24,121 nucleotides of DNA. It comes from a virus. The stretch is from positions 1 through 24,121 of IMG/VR virus record IMGVR_UViG_3300048592_000950, one strand, 5' to 3'. How positions within the stretch are numbered: the first letter of the stretch is position 1; each line of letters opens with the position of its first letter. This document shows, in pieces, positions 4,844 through 24,121 of this stretch. The notes beneath the pieces were generated by a model. The model was given only the letters and a program-made list of their open reading frames with translations, searched no databases and was not told the DNA's origin. Position numbers and translations under genes: made by a program.

Positions 4844-5568
4844 ACGAGCCCACCCATCAGGGCGAGATCCAGCCGCGCAAGCACACCTGCCCCCAGTGCC
4901 AGGCGTTGATCACAGCCCCCACCGAGCGCGAGTTCGAGGCGCTGTGGGAGCGCCACAAGGCCGAGCACCGGGCCGAGGCCGAGGCGGCCCAGGCCAGCCT
5001 GGCGCCCACCGAGGAGGAGATGGCCGCGGCCACCACCAAGGCCAAGGCCGACGCCGCCCTGATTGAGCGGGCCTTCAAGAACGACCAAGACCACCTGCGG
5101 GACCTGGAAGACCACTTTGAGGCGCTGAGCCGCATCGAGCACAAGCTGCCCCAGCTCATCGACTTCGCCTTCAAGATCGCCAACGCCGTGGGAGCCTGGG
5201 CCCGCGAGAAGGGATACCGCACCAAGGCGCTGAAGCTGGGCACCATCTACTGGACGCCCACGGGCGAGATCGCGGTGGAGTTCACCTACGACAAGTTCGA
5301 CCTGAGCGCCCCCGAGGAGCCCGAGTACTTGAAGCGCGGCTACGCCCGGCTGCCCCAGCTCAACGCCAAGTACCCCGCGGTCTTTGAGCTGACCATGACC
5401 CTGGGCGAGCACCTGGTCAACATCTGCATGCAGCGCAAGCTGACCAAGAAGGACATCAGCTTCACCGGGCTTCACCACTTCACTAACCCCAACACCGGCG
5501 CCCAGATGTGGTCCTTCAAGATCATCAACCACCGGGCCGTGTTGAAGGCCGGGCAGATCCGGTTCTGA
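4840..5568 (+). CDS. Hypothetical protein with C2H2-like zinc site
   Basis: A 242-residue protein of unknown function. The N-terminus carries CPQC (Cys17, Cys20) followed by HKAEH (His39, His43), a spacing of C-x2-C-x18-H-x3-H that could bind one zinc. A charged helical stretch follows (about 45-125), probably coiled-coil, with many Ala, Glu and Lys. The C-terminal part (about 130-242) mixes beta and alpha segments and includes IYWTPTGEIAVEFTYDKFD and SFTGLHHFTNPNTGAQMW. It starts with an ATGA overlap, so it belongs to the operon. The zinc site might serve protein or nucleic-acid contact. I cannot assign a role. Its place between MuF and the protease suggests a head accessory or a passenger gene. 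Confidence 0.75.
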   Translation: MNEPTHQGEIQPRKHTCPQCQALITAPTEREFEALWERHKAEHRAEAEAAQASLAPTEEEMAAATTKAKADAALIERAFKNDQDHLRDLEDHFEALSRIEHKLPQLIDFAFKIANAVGAWAREKGYRTKALKLGTIYWTPTGEIAVEFTYDKFDLSAPEEPEYLKRGYARLPQLNAKYPAVFELTMTLGEHLVNICMQRKLTKKDISFTGLHHFTNPNTGAQMWSFKIINHRAVLKAGQIRF

Positions 5569-18281: not shown

Positions 18282-19643
18282 ATGCCCGGCACGATCCTGC
18301 AAAGCTTCCCCCGCTTCAGCGACGGCCTGCTCCTTTTTGAGAGCTTCGAGGCCGAGAATTTCATGAGCGATCAAAACTGGACGCTGCTCAATGGCACGCC
18401 CCAGATCAGCAGCGACGTCTCGGTGGACGGGCTCAAGAGCCTCAAGCTGGACACCACCTATCCCCAGATCCAAAAGATCACCGGCGCCTTCCAGTTCGGC
18501 GTGGCCTGGTTCTACGACGACAGCAGCATCGTCGCCGGCGGCTTCACCCCCTTCGCGATCTGGGAGACCACGGGCGGCCAGATCTTCGGCCTGGGCGTGG
18601 ACCTGGGCGTCAGCACCGTCAACTACACCAAGATCGTCAACGGCGTCAGCAGCGACAGCGGCGTGGCCCGCACCACCGACTACCGGCGCTTCACGATCAA
18701 GCAGTCCCTGGGCAGCGTGGACCTGGCCATCGACGGCGTGAGCGTGGGCGGCGCGGCGATCGCCACGGCCCTGACCAAGACCAAGATCGGCTGCAGCGTC
18801 TACAGCGGAACCTCGGCCTTCGGCTACTTCGATTCGATCCAAGTCTGCCAGTTCGCCGACTTCACGGTGACGCACCTGGATAGCGGCCAGATGGTGAAGG
18901 TCTACCTGTCCGACGGCACGCTGGTCGGACAGGCCACGGCCGCAAGCGGGCTGGCCCAGGTGGACACCACAGCCCAGGACTCGCCCTTCAACGGCTACGT
19001 GACGATCACGCGTCCCGACGGCCAGAGCCCCTACTTCTGGGGCGCCGTGCTGAGCTTCTCCACGGGCGACCGCTGGGCCCAGCACGTCTACCGCTTCGGG
19101 CGCCGGCCGGTCAGCCTGGACATCCGCCCCACCGCCAACCGGCAGGACAAAGAGAGCAACAGCGGCAAGAACCAAAGCGTGTTCTTCTACGACCGCGACA
19201 TTGTCAGCTTCACGATCACCGACCTGACCGAGGACGAAAAGAACGCGCTCATGCGGTGGTGGTCCACGGCCCAGCGCGGCGAGGTCTTCGGCTGCGCCAT
19301 CGACGAGGGAGGCACCTATCGCAGCACGCTGGCTGAGGCGATCGTGTCTGCGGCCCAGACCCTTTTCAAGCCCGCCTCGCTGGTGGGCGCCAACAAGGGC
19401 AGCCTGCTGGTGATCCGCACGGCCACCGGGCAGTTCCGCGACACCAAGAAGGTGGTCGGGCGCAGCGGCCCCTACCTTGAGGCGGACAGCTTCTTCATTT
19501 CGCCCTTCGAGATCGGCGACGAGATCCGCGACCTGCTCTACTGGCCGGCCGCGATCACCACCGACAAGGTGCTGCAGGTGAGCCTGGCCAACCTGCGCCG
19601 GCGCCGCTGGAACGCCACCATCAGCTTTAAGGAAGCGCTGTGA
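18282..19643 (+). CDS. Distal tail-like protein with possible lectin-type N-terminal domain
   Basis: A 453-residue protein directly after the tape measure, where the distal tail (Dit) protein is expected. The N-terminal half (about 1-195) resembles a concanavalin-like jelly roll: LLLFESFEAENFMSDQNWTL, SVDGLKSLKLDTT, FTIKQSLGSVDLAIDG and AFGYFDSIQVCQF at the end. This pattern (a sugar-binding or laminin-G-like fold) is my inference. The second half has a short beta part (MVKVYLSDGTLVGQATA) and a region similar to tail tip proteins, with WWSTAQRGEVFGCAIDEGGT and a closing RRRRWNATISFKEAL. A tail-tip protein with a host-surface binding domain would help adsorption. Confidence 0.6.
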   Translation: MPGTILQSFPRFSDGLLLFESFEAENFMSDQNWTLLNGTPQISSDVSVDGLKSLKLDTTYPQIQKITGAFQFGVAWFYDDSSIVAGGFTPFAIWETTGGQIFGLGVDLGVSTVNYTKIVNGVSSDSGVARTTDYRRFTIKQSLGSVDLAIDGVSVGGAAIATALTKTKIGCSVYSGTSAFGYFDSIQVCQFADFTVTHLDSGQMVKVYLSDGTLVGQATAASGLAQVDTTAQDSPFNGYVTITRPDGQSPYFWGAVLSFSTGDRWAQHVYRFGRRPVSLDIRPTANRQDKESNSGKNQSVFFYDRDIVSFTITDLTEDEKNALMRWWSTAQRGEVFGCAIDEGGTYRSTLAEAIVSAAQTLFKPASLVGANKGSLLVIRTATGQFRDTKKVVGRSGPYLEADSFFISPFEIGDEIRDLLYWPAAITTDKVLQVSLANLRRRRWNATISFKEAL

Positions 19644-21289
19644 CCCAGCAGGTCAACACGCGCTACGGGCGCGTCCTTCAACGAAGCGCGATCCAGCCCG
19701 TCTACCTGGTGGAGCTGGCCGGCATCCCCACGCGCTTCTCCACGCAGCCGGTGCGCAACCCCAGCGGCCCCACCAAGGTCTACCTGAGCGCCATCGACGG
19801 CGCGGGCAGCCAGATCACCGTGGACGAGGGCCGCTCCAGCCTGGGCAACGCCACCTTCAGCGTGCTGGACAAGGACGGCGAGATCACCAAGCTGGCCTTC
19901 GAGTACCAGCTCGCCAACCGCGTGGTCACGATCAAGAGCGGATTCTTGGAGCTGGACGAGAGCGAGTACGTGACGGTCTTCACCGGGCGCGTGCTGGACT
20001 ACACGCTGGAGCGCGACAACACCACGTGGAAGATCCAGGTGGTGACGCGGCTCAAGGACGAGAAGCAGGACATCTTCGAGGCCTTCACCAAGCTGACCGT
20101 GGCCGCCGGCGCCGGCGACGCAACGCTGACGGTGGCGGGGACCGGTCCTTTTCCAGCGGCCACGGGCGGCGTGCTGTACCTGAAGATCGACGACGAAGTG
20201 ATCAGCTACACCGGCAAGACGCTGACGACCTTCACGGGCTGCGTCCGTGGCCAGCTCGGCACCGTGGCCGCGGCGCACGGCGTCGACGCAGAGGTGGTCA
20301 ACCTGGCCTACCTGGCCGGAAACGCGCTGACGCTGGCGCTGCAGATCCTGACGAGCACCGGCCTGGGCACCAACGGTCCCTACGACGTGCTGCCGGCCTG
20401 CGCGGGGCTGGGCATCGACCACGCCGACATCGACGTCGCCAAATTCGAGAGCGAAAGGGATCGCTGGCTGGCGGGCTTCGATTTTCGCTTCACCGAGTTC
20501 GAAAAGGTCGAGGGCAAGAAATTCCTTGAGGAGCAGATATTCACCTTCTGCAACGCCTACCCCACCACCGACAACCTGGGCCGCATTTCGGTGAAGGTCT
20601 ACGCGCCCCCGCTGCCCAATGCCATTGCGCCCGAGCTGAACGACGATGCGCTGATCGGGCCGCCGACGTTCAAGGGCAATGTCCTGCAGACCTATTTTTT
20701 CAACGAGATCGACATCAAGTACGACTGGGACTTCAGGTTCAACGAATACTTGAGCCGGGCGCTTTACGAGGAGAGCAACAGCCAGGTCACCTTCGACACC
20801 ACAAAGACCCGCGCGCTGCAGAGCCGCGGGATCCACGTGGGCACCGGCCCCACCGACATGCGGCAGACCCGGCTGGACGGATACGCCGTGCGCTTCTTGA
20901 AGCGGTTCGCCTTCCCCTCCCCGGTGCTGGAAGCGACCGCATTCTTCTCGAAGCGGCTTTTAGAGCTGGGAGACGTGGTGCCGCTCAGCTCGGATTTCGT
21001 CCCCAACCTGGCTACGGGCAAGATCGGGATCCAGGCCCAGCTCATGGAGCTGATCGAAATCACGCCCAGTTACCTGGAAGCCACCCAGCGCTACACGCTG
21101 CTGAACACCGGCTACAGCTACGGCCGCAAGTACGGCGCGATCAGCCCCAGCGCCAAGCCGCCCGTCAACTTCCCCGTCTTTTCAGCCGCCACGCCGCTGC
21201 AGCGCAACTACTGCTTCATCAGCCGCAAGATCAACGCCACCAAGGGCGTGATGGGCGACGGCAGCGACGGCTACTACATCACTCCGTAG
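19640..21289 (+). CDS. Tail hub / baseplate-like protein
   Basis: A 549-residue protein overlapping the previous stop by GTGA, with a GTG start. It is the best candidate for the tail hub that closes the tube (gp27/Tal-like). The first part has strands such as VYLVELAGIPTRFSTQPV and GNATFSVLDKDGEITKLAFE, the usual 'reduced curvature' pieces of hub proteins. A small beta insert follows (about 152-215) with GVLYLKIDDEVISYTGKTLT and CVRGQLGTVAAAHG, which resembles segments widely seen in phage tip proteins. The remaining part (about 240-500) carries FEKVEGKKFLEEQIFTFCNA and ends near NTGYSYGRKYGAISPS. GC content drops between about 20430 and 20990. Role is inferred from order and pattern. Confidence 0.65.
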   Translation: MTQQVNTRYGRVLQRSAIQPVYLVELAGIPTRFSTQPVRNPSGPTKVYLSAIDGAGSQITVDEGRSSLGNATFSVLDKDGEITKLAFEYQLANRVVTIKSGFLELDESEYVTVFTGRVLDYTLERDNTTWKIQVVTRLKDEKQDIFEAFTKLTVAAGAGDATLTVAGTGPFPAATGGVLYLKIDDEVISYTGKTLTTFTGCVRGQLGTVAAAHGVDAEVVNLAYLAGNALTLALQILTSTGLGTNGPYDVLPACAGLGIDHADIDVAKFESERDRWLAGFDFRFTEFEKVEGKKFLEEQIFTFCNAYPTTDNLGRISVKVYAPPLPNAIAPELNDDALIGPPTFKGNVLQTYFFNEIDIKYDWDFRFNEYLSRALYEESNSQVTFDTTKTRALQSRGIHVGTGPTDMRQTRLDGYAVRFLKRFAFPSPVLEATAFFSKRLLELGDVVPLSSDFVPNLATGKIGIQAQLMELIEITPSYLEATQRYTLLNTGYSYGRKYGAISPSAKPPVNFPVFSAATPLQRNYCFISRKINATKGVMGDGSDGYYITP

Positions 21290-22763: not shown

Positions 22764-23213
22764 ATGGAGCTGATCTGCAGGCGCCGCCCCACGGTCAAGG
22801 ACACCACGCTCGGCGAGCTTTGGCTCGGCAACGAGCGCCTCTGCTACACGCTGGAGGACGCCGTGCGCGAGATCGCCGGCCGGCCCGTCTCCGAGTGGAA
22901 GGTGGCCGGCAAGACCGCCATCCCCGCCGGCCGCTATCGCCTGACGCTGGAGCACAGCCCCCGCTTCGGCGCCGACACCATGACGCTGAACCTCGTGCCC
23001 GGCTTTGTGGGCGTGCGCGTCCACGCCGGCAACGACGACGCCGACACCGAGGGCTGCCCTTTGCTGGGCATGGCGATCACCGACAAAGAGGAGGACGGCG
23101 GCGGGATCGTGGGCGGCACGTCTCGGCCGGCCGTGGAGAAGGTGAAGGCGCTGGTGAAGCAGGCCATCGACTGCGGCGAGGAAGTCTGGTGGCACATCAA
23201 CCCGGCCGCGTGA
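22764..23213 (+). CDS. DUF5675 family protein (possible wall-acting enzyme)
   Basis: A 149-residue protein with the full pattern of the DUF5675 family: DTTLGELWLGNERLCYTLED near the start, then GKTAIPAGRYRLTLEHSPRF near 50-70, VPGFVGVRVHAGNDDADTEG near 79-97 and a final helix with WWHINPAA. Family members are frequent in phage lysis regions and their function is not settled to my knowledge. His87 in VRVHAGN and Cys98 in TEGCPLLG are spaced and placed much like the His and Cys of L,D-transpeptidases (YkuD type, H...S-x-G-C). This hints at a cysteine-based wall enzyme. The gene lies next to a holin-like and an SLT gene, which supports a lysis or wall role. The link to YkuD is inference. Confidence 0.8.
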   Translation: MELICRRRPTVKDTTLGELWLGNERLCYTLEDAVREIAGRPVSEWKVAGKTAIPAGRYRLTLEHSPRFGADTMTLNLVPGFVGVRVHAGNDDADTEGCPLLGMAITDKEEDGGGIVGGTSRPAVEKVKALVKQAIDCGEEVWWHINPAA

Positions 23214-23225
23214 GGAGAGCGCCCC

Positions 23226-23606
23226 ATGTTCAAGCGACGCATTGAAGCCAAGCAGGTCAACAACGAGGCGGACCTGGAGCGCGAGCGCCTGGCCTACGCC
23301 CCGGTCCTGGGCAAGGACGCCTGGTACGCCTGCCTCTGGTACGCGATCTTCCGCGTGCTCACGGTCCACCTGCTGACCCCCGCCGGCATCTGGGCGCTGG
23401 TCACCACGCCGCTGGCCTTCAACATCACGGCCCGCGCGCTGCAGGCCGACACGCTGCCCGCCGGTGGCTGGTGGACCATCGGCGGCTTCGGCGCGCACAC
23501 GGTGCTGGCGTGGGTCTACCTTTGCGAGCGCTACCAGGCCCGCAACCTGCTCAGCGCCGCGGCCGACTGGATCCGCGGCCGAGCCAAGCCCAAGGAGGCC
23601 GCATGA
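23226..23606 (+). CDS. Putative holin (membrane protein)
   Basis: A 126-residue protein with a basic, charged N-terminus (about 1-28) and two or three membrane segments: WYACLWYAIFRVLTVHLLT (33-51), GIWALVTTPLAFNITARAL (54-72) and WWTIGGFGAHTVLAWVYLC (82-100). The C-terminus is a basic tail (DWIRGRAKPKEAA). Size, layout and position between DUF5675 and a transglycosylase fit a holin that forms membrane lesions at lysis. The stop overlaps the next start (ATGA). No holin family motif is certain, so another membrane protein is possible. Confidence 0.6.
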   Translation: MFKRRIEAKQVNNEADLERERLAYAPVLGKDAWYACLWYAIFRVLTVHLLTPAGIWALVTTPLAFNITARALQADTLPAGGWWTIGGFGAHTVLAWVYLCERYQARNLLSAAADWIRGRAKPKEAA

Positions 23607-24121
23607 GCAAGGACCCCTTCGAGCCTTCATTCTTCACGCTGCTGATCGGCCTGGTGGTGGTCACGCTCCTCGCGGTGCTGGCGGGCACCGGCCTGTTCGG
23701 GCTGCTGCGCCTGGCCCCCCCCTCCCACGCCGCGGCCACGGCGCCGGCCTTCACGCCTTCGCCCTACGAAAGGCTGGAGGAGTTCTACGCCGGCTGCCTC
23801 CCCGCCTGCGTGAATCTCGATCACGTCGCCGAGGTGGTGGTCAACGCCGAGGAGGCCACGGCCCACCTCTGCATCGAGGACGAGCTCAAGACCTTCCTGG
23901 CGATCGTTCACCGTGAAAGCAGCTTCAACCCCAAGACCGACGACGGCGACAGCCGGGGCGTGGCCCAGGTGCGCCGGCGCTATGAGAAGCGGCTACGCAA
24001 GGCCTGGTCCGCCCTGGGCGTCAAGCTGGGCCCGATCACCGAGATCCGCACCCAGGTCTTCATGGGCGTGATGGTCTTCCGCGACAAACTGCGCAAGGCC
24101 GAGGGCTACACGCTCGGCGCC
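23603..24121 (+). CDS. Membrane-anchored SLT lytic transglycosylase, probable endolysin (cut by window end)
   Basis: The frame is open from the ATG at 23603 to the last base, 173 codons. The start overlaps the holin stop as ATGA, with AAGGAGGCC upstream. Residues 9-38 are a hydrophobic segment (SFFTLLIGLVVVTLLAVLAG) with the charged end on the cytoplasmic side, so the rest would face the periplasm. A Pro/Ala linker follows. The SLT-type motif FLAIVHRESSFNPK, with the likely catalytic Glu105, and SRGVAQVRRRYEKRL identify a lysozyme-like transglycosylase that cuts peptidoglycan glycan strands. The anchor could be of signal-anchor-release type, which delays activity until lysis. The C-terminus is outside the window, so the length is unknown. 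Confidence 0.8.
   Translation, partial: MSKDPFEPSFFTLLIGLVVVTLLAVLAGTGLFGLLRLAPPSHAAATAPAFTPSPYERLEEFYAGCLPACVNLDHVAEVVVNAEEATAHLCIEDELKTFLAIVHRESSFNPKTDDGDSRGVAQVRRRYEKRLRKAWSALGVKLGPITEIRTQVFMGVMVFRDKLRKAEGYTLGA

Follow-up and report, generated by a model that had tools for sequence, protein, structure and literature searches.

A DUF5675 protein of a phage has the predicted fold and putative active site of L,D-transpeptidases and is a candidate lysis enzyme

The DUF5675 gene and its surroundings

The window, meaning the whole stretch of DNA that was analysed, is a virus record of 24,121 bases. It contains an open reading frame (22764-23213, plus strand) with an ATG start and a GGAG upstream, whose product matches the Pfam family PF18925 (DUF5675) with an E-value of 2.7e-24 and 85.7 bits, for a cut-off of 26.7. 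The assignment to DUF5675 made in a preliminary description of this DNA is thus confirmed. In PHROGs the same product matches phrog_1501, whose function is given there as unknown, and nothing in its fold or residues sets it apart from this family. The features of the locus are the following:

22764..23213, plus strand: DUF5675 protein of 149 aa, predicted L,D-transpeptidase-fold cysteine enzyme (PF18925 match and structural model)
23022..23024, plus strand: codon of His87, proposed catalytic base (invariant; paired by hhalign with the YkuD catalytic His)
23055..23057, plus strand: codon of Cys98, proposed nucleophile (invariant; paired by hhalign with the YkuD catalytic Cys)
23226..23606, plus strand: membrane protein of 126 aa, possible holin (one membrane segment predicted from hydropathy)
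23603..24121, plus strand: 5' part of a possible SLT-type transglycosylase gene, truncated where the contig stops (ESSFNP...GVAQV phrase recognized by eye)

The closest relatives of the window protein are encoded on viral contigs (about 60% identity), followed by a contig of a Rhodoferax MAG (58%) and by Curvibacter phage PCA1 (48%), and the host of the window virus may belong to the Burkholderiales. The phage collection holds 171 DUF5675 records, and the search of the plasmid collection for relatives returned one record, a Prevotella replicon of 1.77 Mb. Compared with the sequences of solved structures, the window protein gave chance matches only (best E 0.21). Elsewhere in the window, a large open reading frame (19640-21289) has low-scoring hits in families of phage baseplate and virion structural proteins, the best being phrog_2885 with an E-value of 2.5e-10 over about 60 residues.

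The two downstream genes had been called holin and SLT genes in the preliminary description. The membrane segment of the first and the SLT-like phrase of the second agree with these names, but neither product matches a family in Pfam (E 0.1), PHROGs (0.01) or the phage collection (0.01), so that both names are plausible rather than established for the window. The 23226-23606 product also had no relative in the scan of viral contigs. The 23603-24121 gene overlaps the preceding one as ATGA and its product has a hydrophobic N-terminus; none of its matches passed a cut-off, and comparison with PDB sequences gave nothing convincing. These neighbours may form a lysis cassette with DUF5675, and if the SLT gene is real, the window would encode two wall enzymes.

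Conservation of the putative active site

The conservation of the family was studied on 104 relatives, of which 73 were collected through peptide patterns and 31 by other routes (16 phage records by tblastn and 15 bacterial loci by the Pfam model). His87 and Cys98 lie, as first described, in VRVHAGN and DTEGC phrases, and their invariance, proposed at that stage as a check, is borne out in the sampled relatives: both are present in 104/104 sequences, as are Gly97 and Tyr58, while Glu31 is found in 103/104 and Thr or Ser occupies position 95 in 95/104. The narrower set of 73 sequences also has His87 and Cys98 constant, but four further residues that seemed invariant there (Cys27, Asp32, Arg35 and Lys46) vary among the 104. 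Some of the collection patterns include the His phrase whereas none includes Cys98, and both residues are kept in all 31 relatives found without patterns. An artefact of pattern collection was therefore rejected as the source of this conservation. Inspection by eye of two loci found with the HMM and lying outside the 104 (L116 and L155) showed both residues again.

Several members of the family are unusual in other respects. Two bacterial proteins (L115 and L116, open frames of 438 and 419 aa) carry DUF5675 at the N-terminus, followed by a C-terminal region of about 250 aa, and their motif reads GGC without the Thr at Cys-3. One bacterial genome (L122) has two DUF5675 copies, the second of which has an in-frame TAA and was excluded from the counts. 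In the crAss-like phage cr124_1 (L156), an in-frame TAG stands at codon 109 of the annotated CDS at 5001, which suggests stop-codon reassignment.

Predicted fold and relation to YkuD enzymes

An AlphaFold model of the window protein, built with the 73-sequence alignment, had a pLDDT of 94.8 and a pTM of 0.88. Searched with Foldseek against the PDB, it had 194 matches with E-values of 10 or less. None reached E 0.001, and YkuD entries were absent from the best 50 of the 194; against viral models, DUF5675 relatives were found, 12 of them at E 0.001 or better. Structural re-alignment covered Foldseek's top 1000 chains and is therefore a second look at that list and not a free search. It left 33 rows, of which 24, at Z 5.2-9.0, all belonged to the L,D-transpeptidase superfamily, among them Pgp2 (Z 9.0, rmsd 2.7 over 110), DpaA (8.5) and Tlde1a (8.0), whereas the nine others were unrelated, with Z of 2.6 or less. 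A second model, made for the DUF5675 domain of a Marinifilum relative that is fused to SH3_3 (pLDDT 85.5), gave 30 rows at Z 6.4-9.2, again all from this superfamily, and one other row at 2.3. According to the tool's own note, a Z under 8 can reflect a common arrangement in such models; we judge the match convincing because of the gap in Z and its repetition in two models. The overlay on YkuD that had been proposed at the outset thus yields, with Z up to 9.0 and 9.2, a predicted YkuD/L,D-transpeptidase superfamily fold for DUF5675.

Comparison of profiles gave a fainter signal. The YkuD model PF03734 did not match the window protein at E 0.1, and hhalign of the 73-sequence profile against 13 YkuD domains scored 16.4, with a probability of 0.8%, a score equalled by 4 of 60 column shuffles. 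For the 104-sequence profile it rose to 22.8 (probability 7.9%) and with the 31 divergent ones to 27.4 (28.4%), in both cases with 0 of 100 shuffles as high, but the wider profile was built once the narrow result was known and does not constitute an independent test. Every one of these alignments paired the catalytic His with His87, the catalytic Cys with Cys98 and the Ser of SHGC with Thr95.

A chance resemblance, placing DUF5675 outside this enzyme superfamily, would be in line with the hhalign probabilities, which stay under the usual thresholds, and with the frequency of Z values below 8 for such models. We consider it very improbable: in each of two models a single superfamily lies above Z 2.6, the His, Thr/Ser and Cys land on catalytic positions, and members of the family are fused to wall-binding domains (see below).

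The textbook motif H-x(14-17)-[ST]HGC does not describe the window protein, which has a spacing of 11 and reads TEGC. Within DUF5675 the His-Cys spacing is 11 in 98/104 sequences, 12 or 13 in two and 19 in four, whereas it ranges from 16 to 22 in the 13 YkuD sequences. A short loop is nevertheless compatible with the fold, because the solved structure of Tlde1a has a spacing of 10 (H121, S128, C131) and shows S128 bonded to H121, as described in the portion of that paper covered (PMC9638812). The YkuD-like site of the preliminary description therefore stands as regards the predicted fold, the pairing of His and Cys and their invariance, but neither the textbook motif nor PF03734 is matched. 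The four sequences with spacing 19 (L148, L152, L153 and L154) form a subgroup, L148 reading THGC, and judging from these motifs the subgroup may link DUF5675 to classical YkuD enzymes.

Closest known enzymes and the type of reaction

With YkuD enzymes (PF03734; LdtMt2 and others) DUF5675 shares the predicted fold and the order of an invariant His followed by [ST]-x-G-C. Apart from the spacing and the missing PF03734 match, the main difference is at Cys+2, where 8 of the 13 YkuD domains have Arg and DUF5675 has none in 104/104, the position being always L, I, V, M, A or G. The same replacement is reported for the hydrolase DpaA, in which Ala145 takes the place of the Arg that many L,D-transpeptidases have at Cys+2 (PMC10653827, in the part covered). 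Taken with the best structural matches, this residue leads us to expect hydrolysis rather than cross-linking, and we predict that DUF5675 proteins cut.

Both models have the L,D-carboxypeptidase Pgp2 as their best match (Z 9.0 and 9.2), and Csd6, another L,D-carboxypeptidase, is among the matches of the second (Z 7.7); both are multi-domain, chromosomal cell-shape enzymes. DpaA, an Lpp-peptidoglycan amidase (8ikr; Z 8.5 and 8.0), resembles DUF5675 in being a single domain without Arg at Cys+2, but it is a periplasmic enzyme of the host with a signal peptide (PMC10653827, same part), whereas DUF5675 proteins have no obvious one and are mostly phage-borne in our sample. Tlde1a, a type VI effector with L,D-carboxypeptidase and exchange activity (Z 8.0 and 7.6), shares the short His-Cys spacing and a Ser at Cys-3, but differs in its SHGC, its disulphides and its capping subdomain, again from the portion of the source covered (PMC9638812). 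Its family, PF10908, matches one DUF5675 relative weakly (L113, E 0.071), which by the cut-off is not a member.

Three fusions fit a target in the cell wall: DUF5675 with SH3_3 in the Marinifilum protein, with PG_binding_1 in gp261 of Sphingomonas phage PAU, and, as the C-terminal domain (E 2e-17), with an RHS-repeat protein (L119, 262-1890, plus strand). The last of these comes from a bacterial genome of the class of the Rhodoferax MAG. Because polymorphic toxins carry variable C-terminal domains, this protein could, by analogy, be such a toxin aimed at rival bacteria.

These similarities also bear on an enzyme that makes bonds, that is an L,D-transpeptidase or a D-amino-acid exchanger, which during infection would alter the wall of the host cell or poison that cell like Tlde1a. 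The Tlde1a match and the RHS fusion, with its suggestion of an interbacterial toxin domain, speak for it, as do the names of GenBank crAss-phage members ('L,D-carboxypeptidase/transpeptidase', 'putative transpeptidase'), copied at least once to a Pseudomonas phage. We nevertheless regard bond-making as unlikely, given the absence of Arg at Cys+2 throughout the family and the position of the gene in lysis cassettes.

Position among lysis genes

Neighbourhoods were counted in 86 non-redundant loci out of the 104, with 144 genes from the same loci as controls. An adjacent gene on the same strand encodes a protein with a predicted membrane segment in 66 of the 86 loci, compared with 27 of the 144 control genes; such neighbours stand on both sides in 25 cases (2 among controls), a Rz-like protein lies downstream in 16 (2 among controls), and 20 of the 86 loci have no membrane-protein neighbour. 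The upstream gene usually ends close by, its stop codon falling between -20 and +10 bases from the DUF5675 start in 60 of 80 loci. Among the 80 upstream neighbours, 10 match the PHROGs holin family 3427 (among the matches listed), 9 match the Pfam family GTA_holin_3TM and 2 match SLT; PHROGs endolysin families match 2 upstream neighbours each, among the matches listed, and these are probably the SLT ones. At least 4 of the 61 downstream neighbours match Rz-like spanin families (seven families, possibly overlapping), and holin families account for 2, 1 and 1 matches there. Reading of individual sequences gave the same picture: the DUF5675, Rz-like and Rz1-like lipoprotein genes stand in a row in the H. 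pullorum prophage, and a Rz-like gene lies downstream of DUF5675 in Curvibacter phage PCA1. In Vibrio phage 1.122.B, DUF5675 and a 3TM holin are a lone pair between genes of the opposite strand. At the level of the family, the DUF5675 gene thus has the setting expected of a holin-endolysin-spanin cassette.

Other surroundings raise the question whether the fold has been reused in a protein of the virion or of its assembly, next to which lysis genes would be incidental. In three large contractile-tail phages, VPALA, Cygsa01 and D506, the gene comes after the portal gene and before prohead genes, and tail or capsid genes are nearby in some crAss phages. We hold this explanation to be improbable in view of the excess of membrane-protein neighbours over control genes, of the adjoining holin and spanin families and of the invariant His and Cys. 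The position between portal and prohead/scaffold genes was recorded at loci L125, L126 and L127 (two Vibrio phages and Pseudomonas phage Cygsa01).

Alternation with classical endolysins

Viral contigs were then searched with the GTA-type holins from DUF5675 loci, and 75 of 80 loci were examined. DUF5675 lies directly downstream of the holin in 13 of the 75 (the DUF5675 searches had already brought up 7 of the 13 contigs); in 12 it starts at the holin stop codon as ATGA, and in the remaining one (L195) it starts within a few bases. For the 62 holin loci without DUF5675 in the examined DNA, 78 neighbour proteins from non-redundant loci were scanned and gave, among the matches listed, Peptidase_M15_3 (10), Phage_lysozyme (4), Glyco_hydro_108 (3) and Amidase_2 (1). 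The same place beside homologous holins can thus be taken by DUF5675 or by a classical endolysin (Phage_lysozyme, M15_3, GH108, Amidase_2), and the two seem to exclude each other. Classical endolysins have folds, and cut bonds, that differ from those predicted for DUF5675.

Whole contigs agree with this alternation. Phage_lysozyme, Amidase_2 and Peptidase_M15_3 were each found in 0 of the 45 DUF5675 contigs of 25-130 kb, while among 30 contigs of the holin set, Phage_lysozyme occurs in 9 and M15_3 in 5, and neither in the 4 that carry DUF5675. Comparing 49 DUF5675 contigs with 26 others gave P values of 2.5e-5 (Phage_lysozyme) and 0.004 (M15_3), which ignore kinship and fragmentation and overstate the contrast because the loci are related and contigs may be fragments; moreover, the holins whose query supplied the control contigs were themselves neighbours of DUF5675. 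The 104 annotated CDS of Bacteroides phage VA7 and the H. pullorum prophage (BK070133) were compared with Pfam and PHROGs, and 41 of them, picked by size, again with Pfam; known families of wall hydrolases were absent from the matches listed, which comprised 25 of 45 Pfam and 25 of 179 PHROGs families for the 104 and all 20 Pfam families for the 41. DUF5675 is not always alone, since SLT occurs in 4 of the 45 contigs (over the cut-off in 2) and upstream in 2 of the 80 loci. In Vibrio phage 1.122.B, one of the tail-region genes is annotated as coding for an NlpC/P60 protein. From the alternation beside homologous holins and the absence of the three lysin families from these contigs, DUF5675 appears to stand in for the classical endolysin.

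The same fold and chemistry could also serve a helper, which would detach outer-membrane proteins from peptidoglycan in the manner of DpaA or trim stem peptides while another enzyme breaks the wall. The presence of DpaA and of the carboxypeptidase Pgp2 among the best structural matches, the absence of Arg at Cys+2 that DpaA shares, and the SLT genes, probably including one in the window, all suit a helper, and we keep it as a serious though less probable alternative, against which stand the three classical lysin families missing from all 45 contigs and the endolysin place that DUF5675 takes beside homologous holins.

Proposed mechanism and significance

The reading that we prefer, with a probability of roughly 0.7, is that DUF5675 proteins are single-domain YkuD-fold cysteine enzymes acting on peptidoglycan and serve as the lysis enzyme in most of the phages that carry them. 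The predicted fold, the active-site pair and the position among lysis genes make this probably an unrecognised type of lysis enzyme. In the mechanism we propose, a holin, usually the product of the gene just upstream, would release the leaderless DUF5675 protein. Cys98, activated by His87 and held by Thr95 at the position of Ser128 in Tlde1a, would attack the carbonyl at the L centre of the third stem-peptide residue, meso-DAP, and water would resolve the acyl-enzyme, so that the mDAP-D-Ala bond, or another mDAP amide as in DpaA, would be cut. Rz-type spanins would then open the outer membrane.

A broader proposal, for which we see even chances, is that DUF5675 represents a new class of endolysins, cysteine L,D-hydrolases that would be the main or only lysin of many phages with Gram-negative hosts, possibly including microviruses, and that would also serve as a wall-attacking domain of RHS toxins. 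Endolysins known so far comprise glycosidases, amidases, and peptidases of the metallo or papain-like type. If the proposal is true, it would provide a function for a widespread family (171 phage-collection records) and a new chemistry among endolysins, and it would suggest that lysis by phages of this kind might be blocked by carbapenems or by other inhibitors directed at Cys.

The preliminary description held that the family has no settled function and that a role at the wall would be new. The first point holds for Pfam and PHROGs, which give none, but the crAss-phage names in GenBank already say transpeptidase, so that this idea is not wholly new. What would be new is the proposed placing of a known fold and chemistry in the role of an endolysin, which gives the loose naming in crAss-phage records the form of a claim that can be tested on specific residues. 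In the portions of the DUF5675 literature covered, the family appears as an annotation and its function is not discussed, and a search covering part of the journals found no description of a phage L,D-transpeptidase or of a DUF5675-type endolysin. The main text of the PhiCrAss001 paper, as far as covered, contains neither 'transpeptidase' nor 'endolysin'. PMC11476376, in the part covered, deals with another domain.

Finally, three microviruses of about 6 kb (L128, L159 and L160) carry DUF5675. For a microvirus, possession of a genuine lysis enzyme would be out of the ordinary. In L159 the next gene encodes a protein of 71 aa that has a membrane segment as well as a lipobox-like Cys, and the following gene in L128 is similar.
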